Positions 954-64,000 of a stretch of DNA of 64,000 nucleotides are shown here, in pieces. Each line of letters starts with the position of its first letter. Position 1 is the stretch's first letter. The position numbers and the translations under genes were made by a program. The notes below the pieces were generated by a model that was not told the origin of the DNA, made no database searches, and saw only the letters and a list, made by a program, of their open reading frames with translations. Source of the DNA: Planctomycetes bacterium syqfu (lineage in GTDB: Bacteria > Planctomycetota > Phycisphaerae > Phycisphaerales > Phycisphaeraceae); NCBI GenBank assembly GCA_020974905.1, contig CP087563.1, positions 434,001-498,000 on the forward strand. Reading direction: 5' to 3'.

Positions 954-1010
954 GCTGAAGTTAATGTCTGCATGCATGGACGCTTAAAGACTTTAAGACA
1001 AATTTACCTC

Positions 1011-3094: not shown

Positions 3095-3115
3095 TACGAA
3101 AGCGAAGTTTCCCTC

Positions 3116-7094: not shown

Positions 7095-7143
7095 ACCCTA
7101 AGCGTTTTACTATCCTTTTCACACTTTTACGAGGTACTTATTG

Positions 7144-7679: not shown

Positions 7680-7931
7680 CTTTGTAATCATTAACAATAG
7701 GTAATCGCAAGATTGCCGCGTCAGATAACAAAACAATCGGCTCGCTACGTGAACTGTCATGAGTTTTTACGACAGGAGCCCTTTGACACGCAACGTCGGA
7801 TCCAGGTGACAGAGAGAGAAACACCCAAGCCCAACTGAATAACCCGCCCACCATTCAGCCTCCCTGCCCGAGATCCAGTTTTTATCTGACTTTTGAAGAA
7901 CCAACCATCCGTTCTTTACAGGGAGTTCCAC

Positions 7932-8090
7932 ATGCCACGACGGATCAAGCGATCGGCTCAACAGCGTCACAACAGGAAGTCATTACGCAAGAGCTTTCGC
8001 AATCTGCTTCGCAAACGGCAAGCCGTTCCGACCATCTTCAACCATGAGCTTGAAACGCTGGAACCACGCGTCCTGCTCACCACGCTTGTC
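7932..8090 (+). other. N-terminal basic region plus LEPR-XLL motif
   Basis: Residues 1-33 are dominated by Arg and Lys; LEPRVLL follows at residues 43-49. This arrangement marks many large planctomycete secreted-type proteins and is thought to act in targeting. There is no ordinary hydrophobic signal-peptide core, which makes the export route an open question. Confidence 0.85.
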
Positions 8091-11000
8091 GGCGGCGATA
8101 TCTTCGAATTCAAAGCACCTGATCCGACCGATCCGGATGGCGAAGGCGTCACGATCCGCGTCGTGATTACCGGCGATACCATCGTGGAGCTCATCGGTGC
8201 CGATGTCCGACTTGAACCGGATGAATTCGGCAACCTGCGTCAGGTGGTCAACCTAGGCGACCTGCCAGGTACCATCTACGGTCAAGACTCGGCAGCAGGC
8301 AGCGACGACATCGAAGACGGCATCGACGTACTTGGTGGTGTCGGTGGTGCAGACGGTGTAACGCCCTTCTCGTTGGATGAACTCAACGGCGCGTTGATGA
8401 GCATCCTTGATCCCCTTTCAGGCAGCGTCATTCTGGCTACGGAGGATGGTACCGACCAGATTGATATGCAGGCCATCGCGAGCATGGGCCTTTTGGGTAA
8501 CGGCACCACGTTCGGCATCAATGTCGGCCAGATCCAGTCCGGCTCAGGCACCAATGCCACCACGCGACAGGTCATCCAACTCGTTCAGCTTGATACCACC
8601 AATGCCGATGGAACTCCCGATACTGACGGCACGGTGCAGGCCATTATCCAGGCTGCCACGCTTCAGAACGATATCCAGTCACAACTGGTCAACTATCCCA
8701 CTGGACTCAACAGCCCCGACGCTTATGCCATTGACCCCACAACAGGCCTGGCCTATGCCGTCTCCAATGAAGTGCTCTACCGCATCAATCGCTCCAGTGG
8801 TGCAGTCACGGTCATTGGCAATGTCTCCAGCGAAACACTGAGCTTTGAAGAAATCGTCGGCGATGTCTCAGATGATATCACCGGTCTGGGTGTCGACTCG
8901 GCAGGTAACTTCCTGTCTGTCTACATCGACTCCCTGCTCAATCATGCCCTGTACACCAGTGACAGTGCAGACGATCCCAACCCATTGACTGCCGTGCTTG
9001 GCGACTATGGTTCGAGTGTGAATCTCACTGCCATCGCGGTCGATTCCGATCCTGATGCGCCGGCATGGGGTGTGGTCGAAACTGGGGGTACCAACTACCT
9101 GGTTCGCTTTACCCGGGTGAACGGCGAAATCCAATCGCAGACGGTCATCGGTGCAATCCAGGATAGCCAGGGACGTAATGTCACCGAAATCGAATCCATC
9201 GAACTCGAATCCACCGGCGATCTCTACGTTGTGGCCACACGCCCCACCGTCAATACCGGTGGTACGCGCGAAGTCTTCCGCATTAATTCCAACACCGCTG
9301 TGGCATCGGCTGTCAACGTCGTTGTCTTTGCAGACGGCGTACTTAATGACGATGTGACCGGTACGGCAATTGATGAATCCAATGGTGCGGAAAATGGTGT
9401 GCTTTATGCCACCGTGCGCATTGGTACCCAGGATATGCTTATTCGCATCGACCGTTCCATTGCCGTCTCGCCCAGTGATTCTGAAGCGGACTCGGAAGAT
9501 GGTGCAGTCAGCGACAACACCGACGGTCTTGCCAACGATGAACGTTTCCTGTTCTACTCGGTCTATGACAACACGGTCATCAACCCGGCCTTGATCTCCA
9601 GCACGCTGGACCTGGTCCCGCAGGTCGATGTTGACAGCAATATTGAAGGTGGCGGTGATCTGCTGGATGCCTACGACGTGACCGCTTTGACTGTTACCGC
9701 CAATGATCGCTTGCTGGCCGTGGTTCAGGAAGCCGATGGCACGATGAGTCTCTATGAAGCCGTGCGCAACACCACCGGCGGTCCCATCCAGAGCTTTACC
9801 AAACTTGGCAGCCTGACATACGATCATGATTCAGATGAAGGTGCAGTCACAACAGACAGCATCGTTAATATCCAGGCCATCGAAGCCCATGTTTCTGACA
9901 ATAACAAGGTGTACTTCATCGGGCAGGTTGATACCAATGGTGATGGCGTCGGCGACACCAAGGATCAACTCTTTGAGTTAACCTTTGCTGATGATGAAAC
10001 ATACAGCATCACCGCTGAAAATGTCCTGATTAGTGGCGCAACCACCACCAGTCAGTTCACGGCGTTGACCTTTGCTCAAAACGATTCAGGCGAACTTTAC
10101 CTTTACGGTGTTCGCCAGACTTCCAACGGTGATGAACTCGTCAGCTTTGCAACTGATGCTGCCAACGATCCTTCCGGCAGTTCCGTTGCGATTGTCGATA
10201 TTGCAGGCACTTCTTCATCCGTGCATATCGCTGCATTGGATACCTATGGTTCAGGCACACTGGTTGGTTATCGTGATGATGAATCCGGCAGCAGTGTCGA
10301 TCGTGATCTGGTCTTTGTAGGCAAGGATGGTTCGGTCGATCAGCGTCTGGCAGCAGGTGTCATCGATAGTGCGCTTTCCGGTTTGGCCATCGACGCAGAC
10401 GGTCGCGTGTACAGCGTCTTCTCAACGGATGGCACCAACTCCCAGTTGTGGCAGTCTGAAAGCTTTGCCCAGATCCCCAGTCTTGAAAATGGTGATTCAG
10501 GCACGCTGGCAGATGTCATGGACGTCATCGCGCTGACCATCGGTACATCCGGTTCGACTTTCATTGTGACCAACAATGACACCGGTTATGTTCTGCAGCA
10601 GGTTCAACGCAACTCCGCTGGACTGGCAACCGGTACCCAAAGCATCGGGCATATCGTCAGTTCCGCAACCGGTAGCAGTATCCTTGATATCACCGGACTG
10701 GACATCAACCCCGCGAGCAATGGTCTGTGGACCATTGGCGTGGATGCATCCACCCTTTCGCCGGACACCAGTCTGGGTAGTGCCAGTGTGCTTTATGACG
10801 TGATTGACGTGGTGGTCACCGACGCATTGGATGCCAATCAGCGCCAGCGTGTCTTTGCCATGGTCGATAACGGTATTTCCATTGACCTTTATGAAATCAC
10901 CCGTGCTGTCGATGGCGATGTTGAAGCCTTCAACTTCATCGGTCAGCTTTCTGACGCTTCTGGCAATGCAATTCTGGCATCCACTGCCATTGAATCGAAC

Positions 11001-14000
11001 AACAATGACGCCTTGTTTGTCAATGGTTATTCAGCTGATGACCTGCTTGATACCACGTCCGTGGATTCTGACATCCTCAGTGGACTGACCATTGAACAGG
11101 TTGCAGCAGTTCCTGGCACGGATAATGCCATGTACGTCTTGACGACCGATGGCGACATCTACTTCATCGACAATAACGGCGTTGAAACCCTTGTCGATCA
11201 ATCTGCCATCAATGACATTCAAGGTATTGCTTATGACGCGACCTTTGAGCGTTTGATGCTCCTTGGACGTGTGGACAATTCCACCAGTTTCAATCTCTAT
11301 GCCATCGATGCTGCGACGGCATTGGATTCAGATACGCTGACGATCACAGCGATGACCACGTTCTTCAACGATCAAACCACCATCTATAACACCAGCAACA
11401 GTTCGTTTGCAGGGATGACCTGGGATAACGAAAACAATCAGTTGCTGCTGATCCGTAACGACGAAGTGACCACCACCAACGGTCAGTTCCTGGTGACGGT
11501 CAGCTTTGATGCCACCACCGGTGATTATGTCAGCGCCACCAGCAGCTCAACGAACATCCAGAATGGTTTGACAGCTGAGAATATGACCATCACTGAGCTG
11601 ACATTGCACAACGGTACGCTGATGGCCATTCATCAGTCCGGCGCCAGCCAGTACTTGGTTGCCATCGATCAGACCGATCCCGCACAGTCACGCATTCTCA
11701 CCAGTGCCCTGGGAGGCGATGACATTGTCGGTCTTTCAGACAATGAAAACGGCAGTCTGGTCATTGTGACCTACGATGAAGATACGACGCTTAACAGCTG
11801 GAATATCGGTGATGCCACCCCGACCACCCGGTTGTACACCCTCAACGACGTTGCCAGCCTGGCATTGGACAGCGGTGCCAGTACAACGGGTAACGGGGTT
11901 GCATTAACGTCTCTGGATGGCAGTATTGTCAGCTTTGCGGTGGACACCGACGGCGATACAACGCTGCTTTACGCTGTGACTCAAAGCGCGGTCGATTCGC
12001 TGCATCATTTGATAACCATTGATACCGACAACGCCACCGATGATGGCAATGTTGCAGGTACGATTGTGGACCTGGGAGCGATCCAGCTTAACACCAACCT
12101 TCAGGACAGCGGCTCGGAAGTGAACCCGACCATTGTCTCTGCTGATATTCGCAATGGCGTGCTCGTTGCCATCGCAACGGGTATCTCCTCGGATGTTGAT
12201 CGTCAGATCATTGGTGTTGATCTTGAAAATCCCACTGAAGACACCATCTTCTACACCATCCCCGATACCTTGTCGGTTGACGATACGCTCGTTGGTTTGT
12301 CGGTTGATGAAAACGGCAATCTTTTTGGTATCAGCAGCAGCACTGGCGTGACGCGTTTGATGACGTCCGTGGTGGAACAGTCGCTTTACACCGTCAGTAC
12401 CCTCACCGGTCTTGCTGCGGCGGTCGGCACGCTTGATGATGTCAATGGTGATCCTGTGACGGACACCGTGACGGCCATGAGCTTCTCCAAGGCAGGCGAT
12501 GTGCTCTATGCCGTGCTGCGCGATATGGATGAAGGCCAGGATCGTCTTGTGACCGTGAGTATGACCGATGGTGAAGTCTCTGAAATCGGTACATCCACCA
12601 GCATTATTCAGGTTAACGAAGAAAACACGCGCATCGTGGCGTTGGAAACCAGTCCCACGGGTGACCTGCTGGCGTATGATGATTCTCAGACAGATGGTCG
12701 TCGTGTGATTCAGATCAATCTTGATGACACGGAAACCTCCCTGCAAGTCACCACGCCTGACACTGATTTGAATGATGTGATGGGCTTTGCGGTTGATGCC
12801 AACGGCCGGTATTACAGCCTTGCTGATATCACCGACACGACCACCAGCACGACCGAAACGCGTCTGTTCAGTTCGCTTAACAGCTTTGTTGCCCAGGCCC
12901 TGTTTAATGGCGGTCTTGGTGCGGCATTTGATGACATTGCGGACCTGACGGTCAATGCAGCAGGTCAGATCTATGCCATCCGTTCGGAACTTGGGGGGCA
13001 GACCAGTCTGCTTTACAAGGTCAACATCGACTCAGCTTCAGGCACCATCTCCTCCTTTGACCTGATCAATCAGATCAGTGATACCGATGGCAATCTGATC
13101 CTCAACATCACCGCAGTCGATGCAGATCCCGATTCCGAATTACTCTATGTTGTCGGCCAGGTTGAAGGGGATGACACGCGCATGCTCTTTACCGTCGACC
13201 CCAGCAGTGGTGAAGCAACCCTTGTTGGTGAAGTCACGGCCTATGGCACGACGGACACCGTCGAAAACGATATCCGATCATTGGCCTGGGATAACTCAGG
13301 AACGATGCTCTTTGGCGTGATCGCCGACTTTGATGGTTATGAAAAACTCATCCGCATCAATCCGACCGATGCAACCTACACCGACAGTGGTACCGTTGCT
13401 CCGGATGTGGTTCAAAGCCAGGATGATGCGGTTACCATCGACATGGACACCGCCCTTGCCATCGTCGCAGCGACGGATGGATCCAACACCCTCTGGACGT
13501 TACATCAGGATGATACGAATGGCTACGTGATCAGCGAGATCACACGGGATGCCGATGGCAACATCACCGGCATCACCGAATATGCCAACTATGACTTCAC
13601 TTTCGACTACGATCACGATGGTGATGCAGACGCCACCACTTCCAACATCACCGGCGATATCACCAATATCAGTTCGCTGGCGTTGTCTGAAGATGGCAGC
13701 ACACTCTACTTCGTTGGTACGACCACCGATGCGTCGACGGGTAATGAATATTCCGTACTGTTTTCCATTGCGGCATCAGATGCTGGCTCAGCCAACACGC
13801 CGGTGACATTGGAAGCAGTGCTGTCATTTAACGACAACACGATTGATGACACCTTCAAGGCATTGGTTGCCAAAGATGCCACGACGTTGACCGGTATCCG
13901 CAGCATTGATGGCGATGACTGGCTTGTGACCATTGACCTGACTGCTGGCGACACTTTGGGTGATGTGAATAACGTCGGTGATGGTGAAGTGAAAGTCGAT

Positions 14001-17000
14001 GAAGTCGGCACCAACATCTCCGCCTTGACCTACAACGTCTATGGCGAACTGGTCGCGCTTGACACCACGGACAATGGCCACCGTCTGGTGATGCTCAGTG
14101 AAGTGAGTCCCAGCAGTCTGTCAGTTGCCCTGACCCGTCAAGGCATCATGGCTGACAACATGGTCGGCCTTGCCACCAACGGCAGTGATCAGTATTTCAG
14201 CATCTCAGACAGCGATACAGCCGATGCCGATCGCATTTTCACCAACTCCGCAGGCCGCGCCTACATCGAAGTCGGTGGTCAGAATCCCAATATCGGCGTT
14301 GACGTGGTTGATGCGACCAATGATGGAACGCCTGATTACACCTTCAGCTTTGACGATGTCATTGATATGGCCGTCTCAGAAGATGGTCTAACCGGTTATG
14401 TCGTGGATTATGACGCGACATCTGGCAACTACATCCTCAAGACGTATACACGTGATGCTACAACCGGCGAGATTGATTCGGATGTCACCGAATTTCTGGG
14501 AACCGATGGCATTATCCAGGAATCCACCGGTACGACGCGCCTTACCGGTGTCACATCCCTGGCCATTGATGGGCAGACGCTTTACCTGACCGCTGCTGAG
14601 GGTGTGTTTGCACTGAATCTTGCTACTGCGACCAATCCTCACTTTACCGGTGCGGACTTTGCTGCAGGTGATGTGGGCAATATTGTCGATGCATTCTCCG
14701 CGCTTGCAGCAGACAGTGATGGCAATCTCTATGCGGTCGGTGCTGTGGATTCAGCGACGATCACCTTCACTGCCAACCCGAGCAATGGTGATACGCTGAC
14801 GATCAATGATGGGACCACCATCACCGTCTACCAATTCGTGACCACGGATGGTGTGAGTACCGGTGATTCGCTGGGCAATGGCAATACGGCGATCCAAATC
14901 ACGGACTACATCGCCAGCACAATGTCTGAATTAGCCACACAGCTCAATTTCGATTATGCCGGTTCGGTTTATGCCGTCGATGCCACGACTACCGTTTCCA
15001 AGGCCATTCGTCTGCTGCATAACGTTAGCAACGCCGATGGCGTGATGGTGACCACATCCGATGCATTGGTCGTAACCAACTTTGGTGATGGTGCTCAACG
15101 TGACGTCCTGATGCTTCTGGATACCAGCGGGGCCAACCCAACTGCCAGCATTGTCGGGAACAACGTCATCGAAGTGGATGATCAAGGCACGATCGTCACA
15201 GCCATGGAATTTGATGCTTCCAACCGCTTGATTGCGATCAATGATGCCTATGGCACAGACATGCGCATGATGATCAACATCAGCACAGCAGATCCGTTTA
15301 ACAGCAGCGTTGCGCTCAGTGGTATCGGCTCGGTCAGTGAAGACATGGCAGGTTTGACAGCGGATGGACGCGGCCGATTCTACAGCATTGATGATAACGA
15401 AACGCTCCGCGCCAGTGGTATCCAATCCTCGGGCATGGACTTCTCCGAATCCAACAGTCTTGTCGTCATGGATGATTCACTGAACAGTGATACCTCCACC
15501 ACCGGACGTCGTCGTCTGGTCTTTGTCGATGTCAACGCACCAACCAAGTCCGTTCAGGCAACTTATCCAGGCGCGATCTCCGATCGTCTGCAGGGTTACG
15601 CTTCGACATTGGATGGCACGTATTACGCGGTCTTTGACAACACAGCAGTCGATGGTGGTTTGACCAACAACCTGCTCTTCCGTTCGCTTGCTGACAACGC
15701 GCCGAACATGACCGTCAATGGTGATCTTGGTGATAACTATGAGTTCTCCGCCATTGCCGTGACACCGGATACCGTCGATGGCCCGGGTGTGGTTTATGCG
15801 ATCAATACCAACGATCAAGGCAGCACGGAACTCTACGTGCTTGATGACGATCGTGAAAACGCATCGGCTGCCCGTTATCTTGGCCAGATCACCGACAAGT
15901 TTGGTGCTGCCATCACCGACATCCTCTCGATGGATTCGGATGAAAACGGCATCCTGCACCTGGTCGGTTTTAACAGCCAGGCTCCCAACCCCACCACCAC
16001 CGTGGGGCAGACCAGCGAATACACGGCCATCAGTGAAGACTTTGAGCCCGTTGCCATGACGGTGACCGATACTGGTCGAATCTTCATCATCAATGACAAC
16101 AATGCAGACACTGATGGGGATGGCAAGAAGGACTACTCACTGGTTGAGATCACACGCACCGCGAATCTCACCGGCGGTATTGTGACCTCCATCATCAACC
16201 ATGGCATCATCCAGGATCCCAACGATGCCCAGGATGGTGAAGACATCCAGAACATCTACACCATCGAAACCGACCCGGTTACCGGCAAGCTCTACACCGT
16301 TGGTACCAAGGGTTCCTCTGATAGCCAGACCCTCTTTGAAATCAACCCGGTTAACGGTGTGGCTCAGATGGTCGGTGTGCTTCAGGATGATTCGGGTAAT
16401 GACATCACTGAAAACATCAAGGCACTGGCAGCCCAGGAAGTCACCGACGAAGTACCCGATGAACTGGACACGGTCTGGGTGATTGATGCTTCAGGAAGCA
16501 CGATTGCAGACTTTGCAGGTTCGGCTGTGGGTGACGTCAACGGTGACGGTTTAGCCAACACGGTTCTCGATGCCGAACTGGCTGCATTGATCAACCTCAA
16601 TCAGCAACTCATCGACCAGGGTCAGGGCAATGATGCGGAAATCTCCATCGTGGTCTTTGGTACCAATGCCCAGATTCAGGACATGGACCCATCGACGTCC
16701 AGTGAGTTTGAGATCGTCGCGACACCTTCACAGGACAACGATGGAAACGGCGTGCCGGATATCATCGACATCCTTCAGAACATACAGATTGATCTGAACG
16801 AAACCAACATCGGCCAACTCACCAACTACGAAGACGCCCTGCAGAAAGCGGCTGACGTGTTTGAACAACGCGGCACGGTTTCAGGTGATGGTGTGATGAT
16901 CTTCCTGTCAGATGGTGAACCGACGGTCGGCAATCTCGATGGCAATAACGAAGGTGAAGATGACCTCTATGAACCCTTTGGCTTTGGTGACCCGTTTGAA

Positions 17001-20000
17001 TACGGCGATGAAGTGACCGAACTGCTGGATATGGGCATTGAACTCAATGCGTATTCTGTCGGTAGTGCCGATGCGTTGGGTAATCTGCAGGTCATTGATC
17101 CTGATGCCATTTTGGTCAACACCACTGATGAACTGACCAGTTCGCTGGAATCGGCAGTGAACGTTGGCTTCGTCGAATTCCTGGCTGTGATGGATGATTC
17201 GGTCAATGGAGGCCAATCTCTGGTCGAAATCAACATCAACCCGGTGGACAACAACGGTGACACAATCTTCGAAGAAATCCGCGTCATGGACCGCGGTCAG
17301 ATTGAGTATGACGTTGATGAAGACAACTTTGATCAGACTACCAATATCGTTGATTTTGACTTCAACGCTCAGGGCGAACTCATTGCCCTGGAAGAATCAG
17401 CAGCAGGACTGCGCGCCCTGCTGCTCGTTGATCAGGACAATCCCGATACCGAGTCTCGTTTGACGACTGACTTCGGTGCAGTGGATGGCAACCTGATGGG
17501 GTATGCATCGGATGAAGCAGGTCGGTTCTACAGCATTTATGATGCGGATGACCAATCGAACCTGGATCTTTGGACCAACGGCAGTCAGCTCTTTACGATT
17601 GACCCGTCGGATCTCAATGGCCCGGATGCCACGCCCAGCGCATTCCTGGATTCGGATGCCGATGGCGTTCCAGACTTGTATGACGCGATTGATGCCAACG
17701 GTGACGGTTTGCCCGAGGAAGTGATTGCCACTCCGGTGACGACGCTCAGTCGCCCCAACCCGTTGAGTACGGATTACATTCCGATCACCACGGTGGACAA
17801 CATTGTTGCTGGTGGTTCGACCGAGCTTGATCTTTCGAACATTTCAATCACCAATTATTTTGATGATCTGGAAGGCTTGTTAACCTCGGTGATTCGTTTT
17901 GATGCCCAACCTTTGGCGGGTGAAACGATCACGATCAATGATGGTTACTCGACCTACACCTTTGAGTTTGGCGTGGATGTTGCCATCGGTGCAGATGCTG
18001 CTGAGACGATGCAGAATTTTGTGGACGCTTTGACTGACAACAGCGTTGCACTGAGCGCCAGCACCTCAACGGTGGGTACGGTCGCGCAATTGATTCTGGA
18101 TTATGACAACACCGATAGCAGCATCGAACTGGCTGCATCACTGTCACTGTCAGATAACGTGCTGACCACCGGGATCACGGAATCAAGCACGCTGACATTC
18201 AATGATGTCCCCCTGGCAACGCAAACGATCACGCTTGATGACGGCTTTGATACCTACACCTTTGTCTTCTTTACGGCCTCTGATCCGACCAATCCCGCGA
18301 CCAACACCTATGGCGTGGATGTCAGTTCAGGTGATATTGATATCATCCTCGGACTGCTCAATACCGCGATCACTGATGCAAATGCTGTGGTGAGTACATC
18401 GGTTGATACCACCCTTGATACCTTGCAGATTACCTACAGCGATCAAATCGGCATTTCGTCGACAAGCCTGGATCTGACCATCACCGGCTTTAGCTCCTCA
18501 GCCACCGGTGACGTGGTGCGTGGCACGATCACGCTTAACGACAATCCGTCGGACGGCGATACCATCACCATCAATGATGGCTTTAACACCATCACCTTCG
18601 AGTTTGACTCCTCTGCTGCCAATACGATTACGCTTGGTGATATCGCATCGGCCCAGTTCTTTGATCCGGATCTGTTCAACTATTCTCAGGACTTCACGAT
18701 CAATCGTGCAGATGGTCAAGCTCAAAACAGTTTTGATGTTGACACCTCATCATTGACCAAAAATAGCTCGGTTCAGGACTTGCTTGATTTGATCAATGAA
18801 GCGGCTGGCAACCTGCCTGTGGCAACGGTGACCTACACTGACTTGCCGGATGAAGGCAAGTATCTGCAGATCAATGATGGCACGAACGAAGTTATTTTCG
18901 AGTTTGATGTCAACTCTGCCTTTGATGCTGCCACACCGTTGGGTTCGCTGAATTCAGGTAATGGACTTGATCTGTCACAAGCCTTTGATGTGCATTATGA
19001 AGACGGCAACGTCCGCTCCATTGACCTGTCCGCCCTTTCTGCAACCGATACTGTTCAGGACCTGCTGGATTTACTGGAACTGGCCCGGGCAGGTGTCGAT
19101 TTCACCGGTGCAACGATCAACCTCACCGACGGTGACACGCTGGTGATTGATGATGGCACCAATGCGGCTGTGACGATTGAACTGGATGCAGGCATTGAAC
19201 TGACCACCCTGCTCACTGAGCTGAATAACGGCAACGGTGTCGATCTGAGTGAGCCCTTTACGGTGACGCTCAGTGATGGCTCGGTTATCGATATGGACCT
19301 CTCAAGTCTGCTCGTGGATGTGAATGTCAGCACGACGGATACAGGCGCCAACACGGTCCAGGACCTGATCACACTCATTGAGTATCAGCGCGCTGTCATC
19401 AGCTTCAACAACAATGCAACTGACGGCGAAACAGTGACCATCTCCGATGGCACCAACAGCTATACCTTCGAATTTTCCGATGGCGCAATCGGCGATGCCA
19501 CGCTCATTGGTGATCTGAACGACGGTGCGGGAATCGACCTTTCCAACACGTTTGATATCACGCTTGGTGATGGCACGATTCTGACCATGGATCTGTCGTC
19601 CCTGGATCAAAGCAGCAGTGTTCAAGACCTGCGTGACCTGATCAATGCACAGCGTGCGATTTTGACTTTGTCGACTGACCTGTCAGACGGCGACACCATC
19701 ACCATCAGCGATGGTGTGACCGACTACACCTTCGAATTTGACAGTGGTCTGCTTGAAGTGGATGACCTGCTCGTAACGCTTAACAGCACCAGCGATCTGG
19801 ATTTGACCGGTGATATCACCGTCCTTCGACAGGACGGCACATCCTTTACCATTGCCGACGGTACATTCGGTCCCGCCAGTACTGTGCAGGATTTCCTGGA
19901 TGCCATTAATACGCATGCCAGTAACCGCCCACAGGCTACGATCGAACTGGACAACCTCCCAGCAGCTGGTGAAACCATCAGCATCACAATCGGCGAAACG

Positions 20001-23000
20001 GTCCACACCTTTACGTTTGTCAATCTCGATACAAGTTCAGTGACATTAGGTGATGGCCAGATTTCCATTCGCCAGAATCTCGCAGCCATTACGACTTCAC
20101 TTGCTGCTGAAATCAACCAACTGACCGATGTTGCTACCTCCGTTGTTGGCAGCGTCATCGAAATCGAATACACCGGCTCCTCTGTCCCGACACTCGACAT
20201 CAGTGATACCGTTGCCGATATCACGGTCGAAGAATGGGCGTCGCTCACGGCTCAAATCAATGATGCTGGTACCGGTATCGAATTGATCGACGGCACAACC
20301 GGCGGTTCGACGACTTTGGTCACGACATCCAATGCTTTGACCACCTTCCTGGGTCTGAACACCGCTGCTGTGAATGGTGTGATCTCCGGCTCCGATGTGA
20401 CGCGCGTTCTCACCGAAGATCAAACGGGCAACGTTGTTGCAGTCCAATTGGTCTTTGATGTCAATGATGACGTGGACTACGAAGCCACCCTTGCCAATCT
20501 CTATACCGCAATTGGAACGGTTGGTGCGTTGGACGGCCTGATCGTCAACGATACCGCCCTCTCCGGTGGCGCGTATGTTTTGACCTTTGCTGATAGTAAC
20601 TCGCTAGGTTTGACGAGTGTTGTATTTGATGATGACGGTGCAATCTCCACTGCGAATTTCAATCAGCAGGTTGACATTGCGATCAACACCGAAGCCGTGG
20701 GCTTTGATATCACTGACCTGGTGACCGGCACGGATCAGATGGTCATACAGACCAACGGCACAACCACGGAACTTGGAATTGCAGGTGCCGCTGAAAGTGA
20801 TGTGATCAACGGGCAGAGTATCTCCACAACCGATGGCGTGGTGGATGGTCATTTGGCGGTTGCTGTTGGTAACGAGATTGCAGACTCGATGACCAATCTC
20901 ATCGCTGCAATCAATGGACACGCAACCCTTTCGACCAACCTGACCGCTGAAGCGATCACCGACACCCGCATCACCATTATCGATGACTCGGGCGCCAATG
21001 TCGCGACTGTCTCGGTTGACAGCACTCATTACACCAGCCGCGATTTCACCGCGGTCTATTCGAATCTGGCCAGCCTCGTCGAAGGCAACAGCACCGACGA
21101 GTACGGCAGCATCACCATTACCGACACCGCTGAAGATGGCGACATCATCACCATCTACGATGGCTATGGCACACCGGTGATCTTTGAATTCGATGCAGGT
21201 GAATTTGACTATGACAATCTTATCGGTGACCTGCGCGATGGTGCAGGTATCGACCTGAGCCAGAACTTTGATGTTACCTTGCCCGATGGCACGCTTTTCA
21301 CCATTGATCTTTCCACCCTTGAACAAACCGACACCGTTCAGGATCTGGTTGATTTGATCAGTGCCAAGCGGGCGCAGTTCAGTGTCACCACCGGATTGGA
21401 TGATGGCGATACCATCACCATCACCGTCAATGATGGCACGAACGACATCGAATACGTCTTTGAAATTGACAGCGGTATCAATGCTGACACCACGCTTGCT
21501 GAACTTAACAGCGGTACGGGTATCACCGACTTCTCCACCTTCACCATCACACGCGCAGATGGTGTCACAATTGACATTGACCCCAGCAGTCTGTCTGCAA
21601 CATCGACGGTTCAGGACCTGCTTGACCTGATCAATGACGATGCGCAAAACACACTCTCTGCGACGATCACGTTATCCAACCAACCGTTGGCAACCGAAAC
21701 CATCACCATTGATGGCGTGGTCTTTGAGTTCCTCAATGACAGTGGTACTGTCAGTGATGCAGCTTATATCGGTGTGCAGATCGGTGATACAACCGTTGAC
21801 ACCGCAAACAACCTGGCTTCAGCAATTGCTGGCAATACCTCCGTCACCAGCACCTACACAGGCCTGGTCGGCACCAATGCCTACGTTACCGTGACTTCTG
21901 CCAGCAGCTTTGCCGTCACCGGCGAGAGTAGCAACTTCATGAGTGTGACTGCACAAGGTCAACTCGTTGCGCAGATCTCTGCTGACGGGACGTCCATCGA
22001 ACTGGTCGATAACACCACCGGCGGTAATACGTTGACCGTCAGCAATTCCGTTGCAGGTGAGTTCATTGATCAGCTGGGTCTGTTGGGCGCAGATGGCACG
22101 TTGGATACCGAGGAAGACGGCACGCTCATCGGCACGCAGATCAGTCCTGCACTGAATCATGCCACCACCGGAGCGACTTACATTGTCACGGCCGTTCAGA
22201 TGGGTGATGACCTTTCAGAGACCATTGAAAATCTGATCGAAACCATCAACAACACCGCGGGTCTGGATGTGACCGTCGAAAATCTGTTCGGTGATACACT
22301 GACCTTCGTCAATGTGGATCAGTCCACGCATTCCGGTGTCGAGGTTGAATATGACTATGGCTCAACCCCCATCGTCCAGGAATTCGCTTCGGTTGATGCG
22401 CGTATCAATTCGCTGAACATCGGCTTTGTGATCGATGCATCAGCCGTGACAGCAAATGGCAATGACCTGCTGACGATTGAGTCCAATACCACCACATCCA
22501 ATCTGGGGATTGCGGGTCAGGATGGCGATGCGGATGCAACCGAAGACCAGATACTCTACGGTCAGACGCTCTCCTCTCTGTACGGACTGGATACCACCGT
22601 CTTCTTTACCACCAACACGCAATTGGGATCGCTGCGTGATGGCAACGGCATCGATACGTCCGCACCATTCGAAGTCTCCTTCCAGGATGGCTCAACACGC
22701 ATCTACGACCTAAGTTCTCTGGATAGCACCAGCACGGTTGCTGAGTTGCTCCAACTCATCGGTTATGCGCGGGGTACCATCGATCTGACTTCCGGTCAAC
22801 CCAATGTTGGTGACACCATCACCGTCAATGACGGAACCACGACGGTGACCTACGAACTGAATACGGGTATCTTTGATGACACCACACTTGCAGCTTTGGG
22901 CGTGACCAGTATCAGCAATTTTGATATTCGTCTGAGTGACGGCAATGTTTACACTGTTGATCTGACGACGACGCCTCCAACAGATGTTCAGGACGTGATC

Positions 23001-50000: not shown

Positions 50001-53000
50001 CGTAGTGGCAAGTACATGTACATCGTCGTGGATTCGATCCCCAGTCAGTACAACCCTGGCAGTGCTGATCCCAACGAAGGTGACCACCTGATCCAGATCC
50101 GTATTGATCAGCTTGATTCAACTGCAGGTACTGCCACCCTGGCTGGCATGCTCAAGGGTGAAATCATTGATCAAAGCGGTAATGACGTGGACATTGTTGC
50201 CATGGACTTCACACTTGAAGGTGAGTTGGTGGCCTATGACACTTACGCCCAGGGTCAGCAAGGTGCCAACGACTGGCGAATGATCCAGATCGACACATCT
50301 GAAGCATACAGTGAAACATTGACCAAGAACGTCGCTGCCACCCAAATCTCGCTGCCAGGTAGTATCAGCAGCAGCTTCCAGGGATATGCGATTAACCAAT
50401 ACGGTCGCGGCATCAGTGTCCGTGTGGGTGCCACACCGTCAGAACTTTACATCACAGGCAACCAGCTGCTGCATGTGCCGCTGGTGACGACCGATGTCAA
50501 TCAGGATGGTTTGACGCTAGAAGCCGTGGTTGATGTGGTGGGTAATCTGGATACCGAAGGGACGATTTACTCAGACATCACCGGCTTGATTTCTCACCCG
50601 ACGCAGCCGTTGCTCTTTGCATCGTCAAACCAGAAGGGTTCGAGCACGACCAACCTGTTGACCTTGAGCACCACCGATGGTTCGGCTGGTATTCTCGGTG
50701 CCGTTCAAGTTGATGGTGCCAATACCGATCTGTTGGGTCTTGCCTTGCATGCTGACGGTACACTGGGTGCCATCGATGCCTCATTGGGTGAAGGTAGCTA
50801 CCGCACCATCACCATCGGCATTCCTACTGTTTCTGAAATCGTTGGCGTGATTCGCGTTGACAATCAGGACACACAGGTTGCTGGCATCGACTTTATCGAC
50901 ATCGACGGTGATGGCGTCAACGAACTGATTGCCTACGATGACTCGCAGCGTGTTGACGGTGAGATCGTTCGTCGCTTCATTGAAATCAATACATCCAATC
51001 CATCACAGTCAATCGAATTGTCCGACATGGGCCGTGTCTCAACCGACATCTCCGGCCTGTCTGCCGTAATCAATCCTGACAGTGGCGATTGGGAACTCTA
51101 TGCCTTTGCCAATGACACACCGCTGAATAGCGCCATGGTCATGGCAACTGAAAACACAGTGACCACTGCGAACATCAACGGCGAAGCTGCAACACTCTTT
51201 ACCAATGTCCAGGGCGACCTTGGCATTCAGGAAGAGTTTGTCGACATCACCGTGGTAACGGACTCAGTTTCTGGCATTGAGTATGTCTATGCGGTGATCG
51301 GTAACAGTACCGATGGATTCAGCATGATCCGCTTCCAGGAAGATGATCCGACAACGATTGAACAACTCGGTTCGATTCTCAGCCCCAATGACCAGGATAT
51401 CGACGATATCTATGCACTGACGACCAATCCCAATAGCGGTGACATCGTCTTTGTCGGCCGTCGCAGTGGCCAGTCTGAACTGGAAGTCTTCACCATTGAA
51501 GCCAGCGATCTGACCAATCTGGAGGCCAAAGCAAGTACATCCAGAACCCTGATTGTGGATGGTGATTCAAGCTATCTGGCTGCCGGTGCGATCACAGCCC
51601 TGGCGTTTATGGCTGGTACCAGTAATAACCGTCTGTTTGGCATCTATTCTGACGATACCGGTGATGAACATTCCGACCGCCTGATGAGCATCAGCCTGGT
51701 CAGTGGCAATGTCATTGACTTTGGTGAAGTGAAGATTGGTGACGAAGACAACACCACCAACATCATTGCCATGGAAGCCCGCACTGACATCAATGGTGTG
51801 TCGAGCCTTGTTGCCATTGATACGTCACTGGTCAACCTGGGTACTGGCGAACGTCGTCTGGTTGAGTTGAAGCTCGATTCAGATAGTACGGTTGGCCAAA
51901 TCCATGCCATGGACTTTGATGAAGATGGCAATCTCTATGTCATCACGCAGGACTTTGATGGCAATACGTCCATCGACTCAAGTACGTTGCTGAGTACGGA
52001 AGTGGATTCTGACAATGCCCACATCATCAGCACGACCGACGTGGCCTTGATCAGCATTGACAAGGACTCAGGCAAGTTTATCGCGCCAGAAGGTACGAAC
52101 TTTGCAGACAGCGACGTTCGCCCGATCCTTCTGTCGGGCTATGAAGTCATTGGTGATTACCTGGGTATGGCGTTTGATTCTGATGGTGATATTTATGCGA
52201 CTTATCGTGAAGCACCGGATGATGAAAATACCGTTCTCCATCGCATCACATTCACCGGCACCAGCACCTTTGCGACGACGCAGTCGATCGGTGACGTGGT
52301 GGTTGGCAGCACCAATACCGATGTGAATTCACTGACCTTCGCCGTTGATGCCGATGGCAATGAGATCCTGGTTGGTATTGACTTGGAGCCTGAAGATGGT
52401 GCCCGACTGGTGAAAATCAACCCGCTCTCGGGTGTGGCCGAAGCCATGACGACCGAAGGTGCCGTGGTGGCTGCCAGCGGTTTGGCAAGTTACGCCGAAG
52501 GTTCGGATCGCCCATTGCTCTTTACCACATACGGCGGTGATGTGATCCGCGGTTCAGCGATTTCCATGTCGGTTGATGCTGAGACAGGTGAATCAATTGT
52601 CGAAAGTGTCCTTGGCGCGGACTTCAGCCCGGTTGACGGCCTGCTTTATGTCGTCGCTCATGAAACCACCGATGATGGCACACGCGACTTTATCTACACG
52701 ATTGATACCGAGGCAGGTAATGCATCTGCTGTCCAGAACAGTCTCACACGTCTGGATGTCTCACTGACAACCACCCCCAATGACGAAAGGATCACATCGT
52801 TTGTCTTTGACACTTACGAAGACATTAACGGTGATCAACAGGAACGCATCCTGGCTTACCGTATCAATGGTGATGGTGAAGGTGAACTTGTCACCATGAT
52901 GGTCCTGCGTGACGATCAGGATCAACCCTTGTCCATCTTCAGCCTGAGTACTGTCGCGGTTGAATACCTGGGTGAAACGATCGACACCGTGTCGGGTCTT

Positions 53001-56000
53001 GCCTTGATTGATGAAGATCCCGATGCACTTGACAACACGATTTATGCAGTGGAACAGAACGGCGAAGACAGCCGACTGATCACCATTGACGTGACGACGG
53101 GTGTAGTCAACATCGTCGGCGACCTGTCTGATCCTGATGATGCAGATCCGGATGAAGATGATCCAGTCCGCGGCGAATCATTGGGTGGTTTGACCTATGA
53201 TCCGAACCTGATCAATCCGTTTACCGGTGAACTGGGTGCTTTGATCGCAACGGACACCGAATCGGATGAGCTGGTTTATGTTGACTTCCGCGATCGTCCG
53301 CAAACATCATCGCTGTTCCAGATCTATGTTGCACAGGCAAGCGAAAATTCGCAGATCATAATCAGCTATGTTGACGATTATGATCCAGAAGCAGATGAAG
53401 ATGATCGTCCCATGTTGCCTTTCGAAGGCAGTATTGGCGACCTGCTGGTCAACCCGACGGATGGTGGTGATCAGATCACTGTCTCAGCTGTCGATGGTAC
53501 CGGTCAGGTTTACATTGGTGCGCGTACCGAGCAGTACGATGATGATCTGAAGGTGGAAGACGCCTTTATCCCGGTGACCGCAGGTAGCCTTCTCCAATCG
53601 CTGGGTGTCCGCCCGGTGGGTCTGGATGACATTGACAATGATGACACCTACAACATCTCAGCGGGTATCTTCGTTGCTCAGAACCTGCTGGTCCTGCCTG
53701 ACCTTGATGGCTCGGGCAATTCCGGTGAGATCAACTTCCGTGAAAATCTCATTGGTCGCAATATCGATAACACCGTTGCCATGGCTGTTTCCCAGACCAA
53801 TCTGGGACAGAACACCAATGGTCCGATCATTGCTGTGATTGACAATGACCGTTTCGATGCAGTGGGCTCAGCCATTAACGGTACGGAACTGTCGTTGATC
53901 ATCAACGGCGTGACCTACAGCCCAGAGCAAATCGTTCTTGAAGGTATTGGGACTGCCATTACCAATATCCTGGGTCTTGACTTTGGTCTGACGGATATAT
54001 TCTCTGATGAAGCAGGCGAATCGCTTTACGCAGTCGCTCAAATCGACAACTACATGCCGACCGTGTCACAAGGCACCATTGACAATGTGCTTGACGACTT
54101 GGTTGACTTGACGATTAATGCTGCTGGCACGGTGTACATGATCAACAGCGATGCAGCGGGAAGCTTCCAGCTGGTTCGTTCGGATCGCAATTCCGTCACA
54201 GGTCAAATCACAACATCGACTGCTCTGGGTAATATCAAGGCCGTCGACGCCAACAACTTCACCACTGGTTACAGCCTGCTGACAGGTATCCATGCCATCG
54301 AAGTGGACTCCAGCAGCGGTGAGTTGTATGTCATTGCTGACGACCTGGATTCGACGGATTCCAACGCCCGTGCCATTTATACCATCGGTATCAATCCGAC
54401 GGATGTTGATGCAGACGGTATTGAAGATATCGTTGCAACCAAGGTTGCTTCACTGACACTGCCAACGGGTATCAGTGGTGACATCAATGCACTGAGTTTT
54501 GCAACAGCAACCAATACACTTGGCAACAGCCAGAAATATCTCTATGCCGTGATCAATAACGGTACGACGGATCAATTGCTGCGGATCAATCTGGCTTCCC
54601 CATCGGTTGCCGAATTGATGGGCGTGGTTCAGCTTGACTCGACGAATACGAGCATTGAGAACATGGATACGGATGCCGATGGCAACCTTGTCGCCATTGA
54701 CCGTGCATCCGGCAGCATGATTCTTATCGACAACGATCTGCTTGGTGGTGTTGCCCAGGGCAATCCGCTTCCCGCCGTTGCACTGACAGGTGTCGATTCG
54801 GTGTCAGATGACAGTCTTGGTCTTGCATCAGACAGCAATGGTCACTTCTACTCCATTGATTCTGATTCAGGGACGTTTACACTTAACCAATCCACCGCCG
54901 ACGTGCCAGTGTTGGGGCAGTTGATTTTCGAACTTGATCCAGACACCAATGAGTTTATCGGTGAAGTCACTTTCAGGCCGATCCGTACACTTGAAACCAG
55001 TGGCATCAATTCGGTTCAGACCATTGCCTTTGCCAACAATCCATTGACAAACAGCAGTGGTGATCCGGTGTCCGATTACCAGGCCATGTACATGGTTGCC
55101 AATGGCAACGAACTGTATCTGGTGGATACGGCAAGCAATGGTTCAATCACATTGCTTGGAACTTTGACCGACGTTGATGATGAAGATGCTTCGATCACGA
55201 TCGGCTCGATGGACTTTGATTCTGATAACCGTCTATTTGCCCACGATGCGACCAATGGTCGACTCATTGAAATCGACTACACCAATGTCGATGTGACGGA
55301 TCCGGACGCTCCGCTGGTCAACTACGTTGGTATCTCACCTGACGGTACGTTGCGCAATACGGTTTCCGAAATCAGCTATGACTTTATCAACGATCGTTAT
55401 CTTGCTGCGGACAACGCAACCTCGTTGCTTAGTTCGACCTCCATTAACGACTCAGCCATCATCATGGAACTGACCGGCACGGATGTGGGCTCAGCATTTG
55501 CACAGAACATCGACAAGATCTTTGTCGCTGGTACGGTCACCGGACAGGTGAATATCTCTGGATCGATCAGCGAGTTCTACACCGGCTGGTTACTTACCGG
55601 CCAGACAGACGGTCAGATCGGCCTGTCATTGCTTGGGCCGGAAGTCGATGACAACTTCTATGTCGGCGGTGATCTGCGTAACCTCGTCGTTGCCTCCTAC
55701 ATCGGCACCGATGGTGTCACCGTCACCAATGACATTGATGCTGACGTAACCTACAGCACCGGCTTTAACCTTCATGTTGGCGGACGTCTGGGACAAATGC
55801 TCTCAATCAACTCCACCAGTGGCCAGGTTGAAGTGGATAATAACTCGGCAGGTATCTCCAATCTCGATTCCTCTGTCCTCCAGCAGGAAATCGAACACAA
55901 ACTCAATGATTCAGATATGACCAATGGCGATTGGTTCCAGATGGGTTATCTGAATGATGACAATGAAACATACTACAATGACACCTTCGACACCGCCCAG

Positions 56001-59000
56001 GTTCTTGGCTCGGTCCGGGAAAATGGTTTGTCTGAAGAAAGCATTATTCGTGCACATGGTTTCCTGGATGGCTCAAATAATGTCAACGATGAAGTTGACT
56101 ACTATGCCGTGGCCTTGATGGGTGGCCAAACCATCAGCATTGATCTGAGTGGTTTTGAATACACGGATGAAGAAGGCTTTAGCTATGGTGATTATGGTTA
56201 CCTATTGAATGTGGGTGTCTATGATCAGGAAGGTCGCCTCGTTGCTTCGGATTACAGTGACATCGAATCCGATCAGTTCCGTGGTGAAGAATTCACCTTC
56301 ACTGCTGCTGAACCAGGTCTCTATCGCATTGCCATTGGCTTTGTGGGTGATGGTAACTTCAACGGCGAAACCGACAGCGGCGAATCCAGAACGATCCTCC
56401 TTGGTGAAGCACATTATGAACTGGTGATCAAGGGCGTCGGCGATCTGGCGGTCGGCGGTATTGTCTCACGCGAGCACCTGTTCGGTGAGTTTGAGGCAGC
56501 CTCGACAATCGTCCGCAATGGTGATCTGGGCGCTATCTGGGTAACAGATACCCAGTTCTATCGCTGGGGCAGCACATTCTCCTCCAGTAATAACATCCAT
56601 ATCCGTCGTGGCGACCTGCGTGCTGACATTGCAGGCACGATTGGTTCGAATGATGCAGATGACCAGATTGGTCTGAATCTTGAAGTCGAAGACGGTAACG
56701 TGGGCTTGATCATGGCCAATGTGGCAGATTTGAACCTGGACTATGCTCATGTCTCAGGTGACATTCAGGTCATTGATGGTCTTGAATCGGTATACGTGAA
56801 TATCCATGCCAACGGTGGTTTGGGGGTTATCCGTGCTGGTGATATGGACACGGATATTGCCAGTACAATCAGCGTCAACGAAGACAACCTCAACCAGGAC
56901 GGCATCATTGACTTGATTGACGTGGTTGGTGATTTTGGTTCATCGCTTGCTGGTGGTCCGCAAATCAGTACCGGCCTGGGCGGTAATGTCCGCTATATCC
57001 AGGTTGGTGGCGATGTCTACCAGGACCTCTACTTCGGTTCCGGTGATCCGGTGATACAAGTCTTTGATGAAGGCGAATCCGTCTCTGTCTATGACGATTC
57101 GGGGGCGGAAATTTACTTCACACCCACGGATGTCACCCAACAGTACGACGAATTTAATCGCCCCATCACTCTGGCCAGCCTTGAATTGGTTGCTTACGGT
57201 ATCCGTAGCAGCGGTGGTAAGGTCATCATCAGTGTCACCTCCACGGGGGGCATGACCATCAACGCCATCTCCAATGGTGTTGGTAACAGTGCTGAAATTG
57301 GCACAATCATCGCTGAAGGTCAAGGCATCCCTGTTGAAGATCCCGATGAACTTGAAACGGGTACCGACACGGGGACCGGTGGCACTACCGATGATGACAC
57401 GACGGATGATCCAGGTGATCTGAATGTGATTGTCAATTCTTCGGACGGCACACAAATTGACATCTGGATGGTAACCGGGGCAGCTGTCCAAACCGTCACA
57501 TCAGACGACGATGCCTCGACTGAATTGACCATTGGTGAAGGCGATTTCTACACCATCGCCAACTACACCGGCGGTGAAATCGTCAACGTCTCTGCTGCAA
57601 GCATTCAAACGCTCACATCGCGTGGCACAATTGGTCTGACATCTTCAAATACGGGCACCGTCGTCAATCCACGTACGGTACTCAACGATGCCTATCCGTT
57701 CCTCGGTCAGCACATCGGCGTGGTCTCAGGCAACATTGCCAACATCACTGCTTATGGTGCACTTGGCAACATCATGGTCGATGGTTACATCGGCTCCGTT
57801 CGTGCCAACTCGGACAACGTCAATGATGCGGCAGTCTTTGAAGGGATCTCTGGTCCAATCTTTGCAACCGGTGATATCTACTATGTGAATATCGGCGAAG
57901 GCCTTGCAAGTACAGGCAATGGTGAAGTTGCCCAATCCGGCATCTTCGCTGAAGGATTTATCTTCGAGATCGTCAACCAGGGTGAAGGTTCGGATATCTT
58001 CGGCAACATTGTTTCCGAGGAAGGTATCGGCAAGATCACTTTAACCAACGGCGTTATTGCCAACAGTAACATCATGGTGATCTCTGACCTTGAAGAATCA
58101 CTGGAATGGCTCACCCCCTCCATTCCTTCGACGACGGTCAGTGAACCTGAAGAACCTGACTACAGTGGTTTGTCAACCGCAGACAAGGCCATCGTTCAGG
58201 CCCAGTACAACCGTGAGGTCTCACGCTACAATGCCAACGGTGGTATCAACAGCATCTCCACCACCGGTAAGGGCGGTATCCTCGGTACCGTACTCATGGG
58301 TAACCAGATTAACACCATCACCGTTGATGATGGCTTTGGCTTGCTCAACAGTGTCATCTCCATCAACGAAGGCAATGACATCACGACCATGACCATTGAT
58401 GGTTACGGTATCCGTGACGTCATCTTCGACGGTGTTACCAGTATTGATACCATCAATCTGGAAACCGCAGCACGCTACATCGACCCGACACTCTTTGGCC
58501 TTGGTGTCCGTCCATCCATGCAGGTTGATGGTATTGCCAACACGCTGACGGACCTGCTGCACTACCTGGCAGAATCCAACGGCATGGAAATTGATGAGTT
58601 CATGGCAATGGTTTCGGATATCAATAATGGTGTTGATATCGCTGATATTGCCAACCTGGGTTGGTATGACAACTACCAGGATTCAGGCACCGGCGCCGCC
58701 ATCCCCGATGTGCTTCAGGCCGGTATCCTCGCCAGCGTGGACATGCGTGGCTCGCATAATCTGGGCACACTCAATGCCTATCAGATACGCAGTGACAATG
58801 AAGATGGCTTGGCAACCACACAGATCATCTTCGCCAACCATATTGGTGACGTCACGATCACCGACATTGTCAAGGGCCTGAATCTCACGACAGGCAGCAT
58901 CGATTCGATGATCATCGGTTCGGACCTGATCAATTCCGATCTGCACGTTGCAGGCGAATTGACTACCTTCACCGTCGGTGGCGATTTTGATGAAGATTCT

Positions 59001-62000
59001 GCATTGACTCTCGAAGGCTACAACGGTTATCTCAACCAGTTCAATGTCTCTGGTGACATGGCAGGTGAGTTGATCGTGGCCGGATCGGTCAACAATATCG
59101 ACATCAACGGCGACCTGACAGGCTGGATCCAGATCGAAGGTGGTCAATCTGCAATTGCAGCGTTGAACAAGATCGATGTGGCCAGCAGCCTCTCCAGCGA
59201 CAACTTCTATGTCGATGGTGATGTCAATACGATTTATGTCGGCGATGATGCAAGCGGTAGCCTGACCATCACCGGTAACCTGGGCACCATGGAAGTCGGC
59301 CGCAACAGCTCCGGCGGTGACATGCTCATGGATCTGATTGTCCAAGGTAATCTTGGAACACTGTCTGCCAACGGTGTGATCTCCGGCGATGTACATGTTT
59401 ATGGCAACGTCACCAATAAGATCTCAGCAACCCGTGTCAGCGATGACATTGGTGCCCTGCTTGGTGACAGCTTCAACAGTGTCGTCGACCTGACAGCTTT
59501 CTCTGACAGTTTGATGTATGTGGTCAATGAGACGGCTGGTGGTGCTTTTGAACTCTACGCCATTACGCGTAACAACAATGGTACGCTCAATGCCGTCACA
59601 CTCATTGGCACCTTGGATGACGGCAGTGATCTGACGGATGTCCAGGCCATTGAAGTGGATCCGACGGATTCGAGCTTGCTCTATGTGGTTGCAAACAACG
59701 GTTCGGATGAGCTGGCGTTGTTCACCGTGGATGTGACCAATGCTGCGGCGACAGATACCGGTATTGATCTGGGGATCGATATTGTTTCTGATCAATACAG
59801 TTCGCTAGCTTTCCTGGGCGATAGTTTGTATCTGGTCAATTCGCTGCTGAACACAACCAGCGGTACCTATGTCAACCAGTTGTACAAGATCGATCTTGTG
59901 GCTGTTTCCAGTGCCGCTCAAGGTGAAATTGATCTGCCTGACGGATTTGACAATACCATTCAGTACATTGCTGCAATGGATACGGATGCCGATGGCAACT
60001 TCCGTCTCTATGTCGCAGATTCCACTGATTCGGAAAACGGCAGTATCATTGAAATGAGCAGTCCGGAAATCTCTTCCTTCCGTATCCCGGGATTGATTAA
60101 TGGTTATGTGATTGCCACCGGATTCTTTAACCATACGGCCTTTGGCAACACGCCTTCGGTTTCCAGCTTTGCAACTGGTCAATCTGGCTCATTGGTTATT
60201 CCAGCACATTCGACCTTCACCGCGACTAACTACGACACCACGTCAACGGAGGTCCTCGGCTCGGTCGCCAATGCCATCGGTTATACATCCGACAGCAACG
60301 GTTACTTCTACCAGATCAATGACAATGCCAGCGGTACCGCAGATGTCCTTTACCAAACTGAATCTTCAGATTCGGCCAAGGCACAATACGGCTTGTCGTT
60401 GATCACCGGTAACGTTGTGGTTCATGGTTATCTGAACAACATCACGGCCAGCAGTGGTCATATCACCGGCAATCTCCTTGCAGGTGGCGACCTCAATGCC
60501 GTAACGGTGACTGATGGCAGCCTTGGCTTGGATGAACGTATCACGCTCTCCTCATCCTTTGGGAACATCGGAACCGTGACGGTGAGCCGTGGCAATATCA
60601 ATGCTCAGGTTATCGCGTCCAATGGTTCAATTTCCAACATCACCACCACGGATAACATCAATTCCACGGCACCGCAGGTCAGTGGTGATCTGCTGGCTGG
60701 TACCTCGATCCAGGCACGCCAGCTTCTGGCTATGAGTCTTGGTGGCAGCATTGAATCCGGCGTCTCAATCAATAGTGAATACCAGACCAACACCTTCAAC
60801 GTTTCTGGCAATGTCGCTGACAACGTGACGATCACGTTGGGTGATCTGAGCTCGGCGACGATTGCTGGTGATTTTGACGGTGATCTGATTGTCAATGCAA
60901 TCAATGGTGTTCGTCCAACCTTTACAGTCAATGGTGATATGGATGGCACAGCCACCTTTGCTGACAGTGCAACGTTGACCGTCAAGGGTGATTTGGGAAC
61001 GGATAGCACCAGCCTGGCACGCGTGGATATCCACGGCAATGCCAAGGTCACAGTTCAAGGCGACATGCATGGTGATCTGGTCGTCGGCAGCCGTCTTGAG
61101 TCCCTGGTGGCGGATAACTACTACGATGCAAACGTCTTTGTCGGCGGTCGTATCAACGGTATCAGCACCACCAATACCACGACCGGCAATGTCGAAAACT
61201 CTGTCTTCCAGGCAGGTTTGTCGGCTGGTGATGATGGTATCTTCGCAGAAAACAGCACGATGTCTGACGTCTTTGAAGGTGGTACGCTTGAGAAGATCGT
61301 CAGCTTTGTGGCAGGCAATATCACCAACAGTATCATTGCTGCTGGTCATGACATCGACACCTTCCGTGCCAATACAAGCATTGACAATACAACCGTGGTT
61401 TCCGGCTTTGTGCTCGGTCACGCGGCGGCAGCATCACTGCTTAACAGCAGCAATAAGACCGACCATGCCGATCTCAGCGATGATATGGCTGATTTGCTTG
61501 GCGATTCCACACGTACGTTGCTCTACGGTGACCTGGGTACGGTGTATCTTGGTACTGCGACTGCAACAAACGTGAATGTTATTGCAGGTATTGATGTTGG
61601 TGATGATGGTGAATACGGTACCAACGATGACAGCATCATCCACAACCTTGGCAACGGTGTTGTTCAGGGCGGTGGCATCAGCTACATCAACAATGTCAGT
61701 GGTGGTATTGGCAGTGGCGTGGCAACCGGCTACATCGCAGCTGATTCACGTATCACAACCAACGGCACAAGCATCACGCCAGCGGCACCAGTCAACCCGA
61801 CCGTGGATGAATTCTTCGCCAGCCTGGGTGTTGCCAATCATATTAATGATGCAAACACCACCGAAGTGGGTTCCAGCTATACACGATTTGACGTCGGTAC
61901 CGATAGCTATATCAACCTTCGCAAGTCTGGTAATGACGATCTGTATATCTACGATGCAGACCCCAATGACAATTACATTGATGCGATCTACCTGATCCGT

Positions 62001-64000: not shown

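Follow-up and report, generated by a model that had tools for sequence, protein, structure and literature searches.

A single uninterrupted gene of 19,792 codons (59.4 kb, zero N) was found in a member of the Phycisphaeraceae (Planctomycetota), and on balance we think it probable that this one selected gene encodes an exported, acidic, beta-rich binding chain that would act outside the cell and carry metalloprotease-like domains. The window, by which we mean the whole 64,000-base stretch of DNA analyzed (G000:C1:434001-498000, part of a single contig of 7,376,598 bases), contains the start of the gene, and the coordinates of its features are collected in table 1. From its ATG the frame stays open to the window edge for 18,689 codons, as the original prediction had claimed, and the extension to the right that it proposed reaches a TAA at 67,308–67,310 in window numbering, 3,310 bases past the edge. 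Around 903 stops would be expected across the giant frame from its base composition, as against none before the TAA, and the five other frames over the gene contain 368–1,839 stops each, their longest open runs spanning 82–375 codons. The Shine-Dalgarno sequence predicted ahead of the ATG also stands, with GGGAG and the start ATG conserved across three relatives (G001, G003, and G019). The predicted protein has a mass of 2.08 MDa and a pI of 4.05, and includes 2,206 Asp, 117 Lys, and 1 Cys.

Table 1. Positions of the giant gene, its parts, and its upstream neighbors (window numbering unless stated)
Feature	Position	Strand	Evidence or remark
Short SecA paralogue, 664 aa	4333-6327	+	SecA_DEAD 274.7, P-loop_SecA 207.9, SecA_PP_bind 90.8 bits
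Unassigned 125-codon ORF between short SecA and DUF3467 gene	6354-6731		
DUF3467 gene	7141-7566	+	Between short SecA and giant gene
Shine-Dalgarno sequence AGGGAG	7920-7925	+	Six bases ahead of ATG 7932
Giant gene, part within window	7932-64000	+	Ends beyond window at 67,308-67,310
Basic start, aa 1-40, net +12	7932-8051	+	No hydrophobic signal segment by hydropathy
Conserved N-terminal domain, aa 38-192, LEPRVLLTTL	8043-8507	+	22 invariant columns, 11 sequences
Propeller-like repeats of ~91 residues, aa 265-2839	8724-16448	+	Profile search; fold at low confidence
von Willebrand A domain, aa 2848-2996, DxSxS motif (DASGS)	16473-16919	+	PF13519 (VWA_2), 28.2 bits vs cut-off 27
First array of ~90-residue IN-like units, aa 3332-5040, 10 matches	17925-23051	+	Profile; Flagellin_IN below cut-off
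Propeller-like repeats, aa 5716-6347	25077-26972	+	Profile search
M8 leishmanolysin-type protease core, HEMGHVLG at aa 6487	27306-27713	+	PF01457, 56.1 bits vs cut-off 21
Propeller-like repeats, most regular run, aa 6642-7593, 10 matches	27855-30710	+	Profile search, model
Low-GC block, aa 7682-9408 (1,727 residues)	30975-36155	+	Missing in frame from G003 orthologue
Propeller-like repeats and a few IN-like units, aa 9409-15778	36156-55265	+	Profile searches
PPC-like stretch	56094-56336	+	PF04151, 17.4 bits vs cut-off 25.9, below cut-off
Propeller-like repeats, aa 17183-17531	59478-60524	+	Profile search
Propeller-like repeats, aa 18268-18671	62733-63944	+	Profile search
C-terminal metzincin-like domain, aa ~19,440-19,792	Past window, 2249-3307 of adjoining stretch	+	HELGHLLGFNHT at 19,697

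The longest exact repeat within the giant gene is 24 bases, and the two repeat families of at least 30 bases in its window part have copies only 60–79% alike, so that reads should not collapse it. A genome of the same genus (G003) encodes a 17,817-residue frame that is collinear with the window gene across 18,061 residues (mean identity 66%) and lies downstream of the same neighbors, ABC, short SecA, and DUF3467. Given the shortness of the exact repeats and, outside aa 7682–9408, this collinear frame in a separate assembly, an assembly accident is unlikely, and the stop, frameshift, or chimeric join that the original prediction had named as counter-evidence did not turn up. Against G003, dN/dS was 0.06–0.27 in 35 of 37 segments, the remaining two being saturated (pN/pS 0.34 and 0.48); segments spanned at most 500 codons, and only those with more than 100 aligned codons were included. 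Against the two pieces of the gene in G001, which cover aa 1–4,199 and 12,884–19,790, it was 0.05–0.26 in 8/8 and 0.04–0.20 in 14/14 segments. Near-saturated synonymous sites (pS 0.69 vs. G003) make these ratios rough, and their sign is identical throughout the compared segments. As judged from these comparisons, maintenance of the frame by selection as a protein appears well supported except for the block at aa 7682–9408, which lacks an orthologue in G003, and the comparative evidence for protein-level selection covers all but one block of this 59-kb bacterial gene.

G001 is the Phycisphaeraceae MAG NAT22, and it carries the gene start (4,213 codons, cut by a contig end) and the gene end (9,281 codons, cut by a contig start) on two contigs. 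The latter frame (G001:C197) jumps from a part resembling aa 4543–6356 at 42% identity, possibly through paralogous repeats, to one resembling aa 12884 onwards, and because of this jump approximately 6,500 residues including the M8 core are either missing or misassembled in G001.

The GC content of the gene is 0.50–0.55 up to 30 kb, falls through 0.479 and 0.462 to 0.445 over 30–36 kb, returns to 0.504 at 36–38 kb, dips again to 0.451 at 38–40 kb, and lies between 0.486 and 0.516 thereafter. The minimum of 0.445, together with a drop in third-codon-position GC to 0.34 at 31.9–34.9 kb, coincides with a second IN-like array (seven matches, aa 7706–8348) inside the block that G003 lacks. Low GC alone is no mark of a foreign block, since the second dip (third-position GC 0.40) falls beyond the block, where G003 does have the sequence. 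A search of 61 genomes for a source of the block gave matches in seven, strong only in giant frames or fragments of the same genus (G000, G001, G002, and G003) and of G019, and weak elsewhere (G010 and G033). The block may have been either gained in the window gene or lost from G003.

Comparison of frames across the order shows that the giant gene defines a family with a conserved N-terminal LEPRxLL domain, a conserved C-terminal metzincin-like domain, and a middle of variable length. The N-terminal domain was aligned from 11 sequences (alignment A1, motif LEPRxLLTTLxGG), G001 being omitted as nearly identical to the window. The resulting profile, whose first row is the window gene itself, so that its own match is by construction, matched 17 of 51 genomes of the family, with one match per genome, 23 of 400 genomes of the order, including two matches inside one frame of G041, and seven of 392 genomes sampled from the phylum, including a partial match outside the order (G215); at most nine candidates were scored per genome in the phylum and order searches. 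The C-terminal domain was aligned from 12 sequences, two of them from contig-cut frames (alignment A2; G018 omitted because of an insert, G049 included), and has the pattern HExxHxxGxxH with H161, E162, H165, and H171 invariant in 12/12 rows. Most of the rows listed have a Met at the position of the metzincin Met-turn (Ile in G057), as which we read NIMMSG in the giant protein, and a conserved EF and an Asp follow near the end.

In the window gene the N-terminal LEPRxLLTTL domain and the C-terminal HExxHxxGxxH lie on the same frame, and both ends were found on 12 opened frames of 4,499–19,792 residues (G000 19,792; G003 17,817; G019 12,459; G049 12,094; G441 7,175; G024 6,793; G045 6,318; G057 5,794; G027 5,624; G034 5,207; G018 4,523; G030 4,499). 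Lengths were measured from stop to stop except in G000 and G003, and the set leaves out G001, G002, G014, G020, G025, G028, G031, G032, G041, G444, and G445, in which the frame is cut by a contig or its end was unread. With the same ends on 12 frames spanning a more than four-fold range in length, the purpose of giant proteins becomes testable. A cultured relative is available for such work: the 7,175-codon frame (G441 C1:3376144-3397671) belongs to the genome of a cultured strain, which we take to be Mucisphaera calidilacus. Two further genomes, G006 and G008, are presumably Phycisphaera mikurensis and Poriferisphaera corsica.

In a protein database search, residues 1–700 gave nothing among 452 scored candidates, a repeat query gave one match among 7,988 candidates, and a C-terminal query gave two among 1,821. 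The N-terminal domain gave no match when its profile was run against PDB sequences. A family with these two ends was not found among the titles listed by a literature search, whose coverage excluded preprints and most subscription journals.

The C-terminal protease-like domain lies beyond the window edge and is thus invisible from the window alone. It contains a metzincin-type zinc site, HExxHxxGxxH. In a PDB search its profile hit metzincin chains (best E 0.00055), and in the best 60 of 136 rows the aligned stretch lies around this site. The domain scores below the gathering threshold of Peptidase M10 (matrixin; 16.7 bits vs. 24). Within the remainder of the chain, only M8 and VWA_2 exceed the curated Pfam and NCBIfam cut-offs in the pieces scanned. 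The von Willebrand A and protease parts named in the original prediction are therefore borne out, whereas its IN and PPC parts fall below their Pfam gathering scores (Flagellin_IN, 20.7 bits vs. 22.7; PPC in table 1). The von Willebrand A domain passes when cut out and scores only 18 bits within a 5,000-residue piece. The internal protease core belongs to Peptidase M8 by its Pfam gathering score and resembles leishmanolysin in having HExxH followed by SHWDE and ELMTG, which we take to be the third His and the Met-turn; unlike leishmanolysin, it is embedded in a 19,792-residue chain. Its HEMGH recurs in G003 (residue 6,484 of 17,817) and G019 (residue 5,457 of 12,459). Weak Pfam and NCBIfam matches to arsenate reductase, acyl-CoA synthetase, phage joining protein, and DUF7397 were regarded as chance.

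Much of the chain is repetitive. A profile seeded from the regular array at aa 6727–7621 recovered 75 matches of approximately 91 residues, some of them overlapping and their number still rising in the sixth and last round, as against none in five shuffles and none in the reversed sequence. The 89-residue profile of the IN-like unit gave 21 matches, as against none in the reversed sequence and none across three shuffles. The giant protein itself was the source from which each of the two profiles was grown. Structure prediction for four repeats reached a mean pLDDT of 53 and a pTM of 0.42, and Foldseek with this model returned TM-scores of at most 0.5 among the best 50 rows, which are presumably mainly propeller proteins. 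This is a weak pointer to the repeats being beta-propeller blades, and the propeller part of the original prediction depends on this low-confidence model. Prediction for the C-terminal 500 residues gave a mean pLDDT of 33 and was set aside from fold search. With mean pLDDT values of 53 and 33, the folds of the repeats and of the C-terminal domain are not established. Four weak spidroin matches in the PDB profile search with the repeat region were attributed to chance, and two repeat alignments of poor quality (A3 and A5) were dropped as structure input.

The short SecA upstream of the giant gene has the motor and preprotein-binding domains of SecA, and no match to the wing and scaffold domain (SecA_SW) was found in it at E up to 0.01. 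It resembles accessory SecA proteins of the SecA2 type in being a second SecA with these domains, beside a 1,377-codon frame in G000, and differs from them in its length of 664 aa and in lacking the SecA_SW match. The order short SecA, DUF3467, giant N-terminus was found in 6 of the 16 genomes for which both positions are available (G000, G001, G002, G003, G020, and G027) from three genera. It is absent from the other ten, in which the short SecA lies approximately 5 kb past the 3′ end of the giant gene (G018), 2.3 Mb distant (G057), or on a different contig (G019, G024, G025, G028, G030, G034, G045, and G049), although some of these ten genomes are drafts whose contig ends could hide a neighbor. 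All 25 genomes tested from the order, nine of them without a giant frame by C-terminal search, have a match covering most of the short SecA (split into two pieces in G002); its length was not read in GC-rich genomes, where open frames exceed the gene. A second SecA was found in 24 of the 25, the exception being G002, which is 78% complete. Because of this occurrence in 25/25 genomes, we do not claim that the short SecA serves the giant protein alone, and from gene order a dedicated role in giant-protein export is only a lead, if a concrete one, on the export route of a 2-MDa chain. Farther upstream (window 915–4150) are a CtaA/COX15-type gene and a UbiA-type prenyltransferase gene, likely for heme A synthesis, and an ABC transporter ATPase.

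A hydropathy scan of the giant protein found no 19-residue stretch of 1.6 or higher, and because neither a recognized signal peptide nor an anchor was found, its secretion is something we infer. We propose that the chain would be exported unfolded via the Sec pathway, possibly aided by the short SecA just upstream, and that the conserved end domains would hold it at the cell surface. The propeller-like and von Willebrand A modules could then reach outward and bind polymers or other cells, and the two protease domains might cut nearby protein or the giant chain itself. Species may tune its reach through the gain or loss of whole repeat blocks in frame; a fiber of tunable reach fits the conserved ends and variable middle of the family. 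More speculatively, and doubtful at present, the family as a whole would consist of length-tunable megadalton tethers with an export or anchor end, a terminal protease end, and a rebuilt middle, exported by a dedicated pair of short SecA and DUF3467.

It is conceivable, though unlikely, that the giant protein is instead a self-processing polyprotein, the whole chain being cut by its M8 and C-terminal metzincin-like domains into several extracellular proteins. Protease cores at approximately one third of the chain and at its end are as such a polyprotein would have them, and HEMGH is inside the G003 and G019 frames as well. However, an internal HExxHxxG accompanies the C-terminal copy in only five of 11 full frames (G000, G003, G019, G045, and G049), whereas six have the C-terminal copy alone, and the G441 frame, scanned with a stricter pattern, shows one. 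By analogy with the proposal for Omnitrophota giants, the protein might also be a weapon that acts on contact to kill other cells or to feed on them, which its giant size and protease content would suit and for which the available part of the Omnitrophota study offers a precedent (PMC10066038). We consider this rather improbable: with only M8 and VWA_2 above the curated cut-offs, no pore-forming, toxin, or wall-degrading domain passed in the pieces scanned against Pfam and NCBIfam, and hydropathy indicates no transmembrane segment, in contrast to the 42 helices predicted in the Omnitrophota protein (PMC10066038). A structural protein of cell-wall or S-layer-like type, its protease domains being inactive relics, would account for a strongly acidic and repetitive chain, but it is a poor candidate in view of the HExxHxxG near the C-terminus of 12/12 full frames and the invariant zinc-site residues of alignment A2. 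An assembly chimera or a decayed gene open by chance, to which the GC shifts and the block without a G003 orthologue might point, is highly improbable against the lack of longer exact repeats, the collinearity of G003 over 18,061 of 19,792 residues, and the low dN/dS.

Both giant genes and larger bacterial proteins are already published, and the exported binding chain that we favor would be a well-supported addition to them whose function we infer. The Planctomycetota are known to carry giant genes (PMC5177795, PMC5352709, PMC11573180), with the largest cases in the available text at approximately 36 kb (PMC5352709, PMC11573180); the accessible parts of three further papers give counts of giant genes and no larger planctomycete case (PMC12288469, PMC8303584, PMC7366357). 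For Mucisphaera calidilacus, the sole protein above 5,000 aa named in the portion available is Pan265_03220, at 13,493 aa (PMC8882080), although the genome that we take to be its own also has the 7,175-codon frame. At 19,792 residues the window protein exceeds these planctomycete giants as they appear in the cited papers. The original prediction was right about a single giant planctomycete gene; the protein, which it expected to rank among the largest from bacteria, is far below the 39,678 residues of a protein from the Omnitrophota member V. archaeovorus (PMC10066038, in the part available) and the up to 85,800 residues cited in the available text of PMC12057145. The Omnitrophota giants are likewise encoded in single giant frames and presumed to be extracellular, and are larger (PMC10066038).

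The closest named motif is LEPR-XLL (NF012209, LEPR-8K), a motif that also appears in PMC10868602 and PMC9611531, which shares with the window gene the LEPRxLL letters near the N-terminus (LEPRVLL in the window). In the window gene, by comparison, the motif opens a conserved domain of approximately 150 residues that is paired with a conserved C-terminal domain, and the NF012209 cut-off of 17 bits is not reached (13.6 bits alone, 14.6 in a genome search). At E up to 1, NF012209 matches 7 of 14 control genomes and is over its cut-off in one. Other NF012209 matches in the genomes searched include frames of up to 13,515 codons, the length of a LEPR frame in G441 (G441:C1:365336) that is probably Pan265_03220, a giant gene of a cultured strain from the same family, Phycisphaeraceae (PMC8882080, in the part available). 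This 13,515-codon frame differs in having no match to the N-terminal domain, the conserved-ends member of that strain being the separate 7,175-codon frame. The chromosome of G000 itself contains further frames of 2,646–4,785 codons with LEPR matches over the cut-off, and a 7,756-codon frame (G000:C1:3825109) with a match of 14.2 bits, below it.
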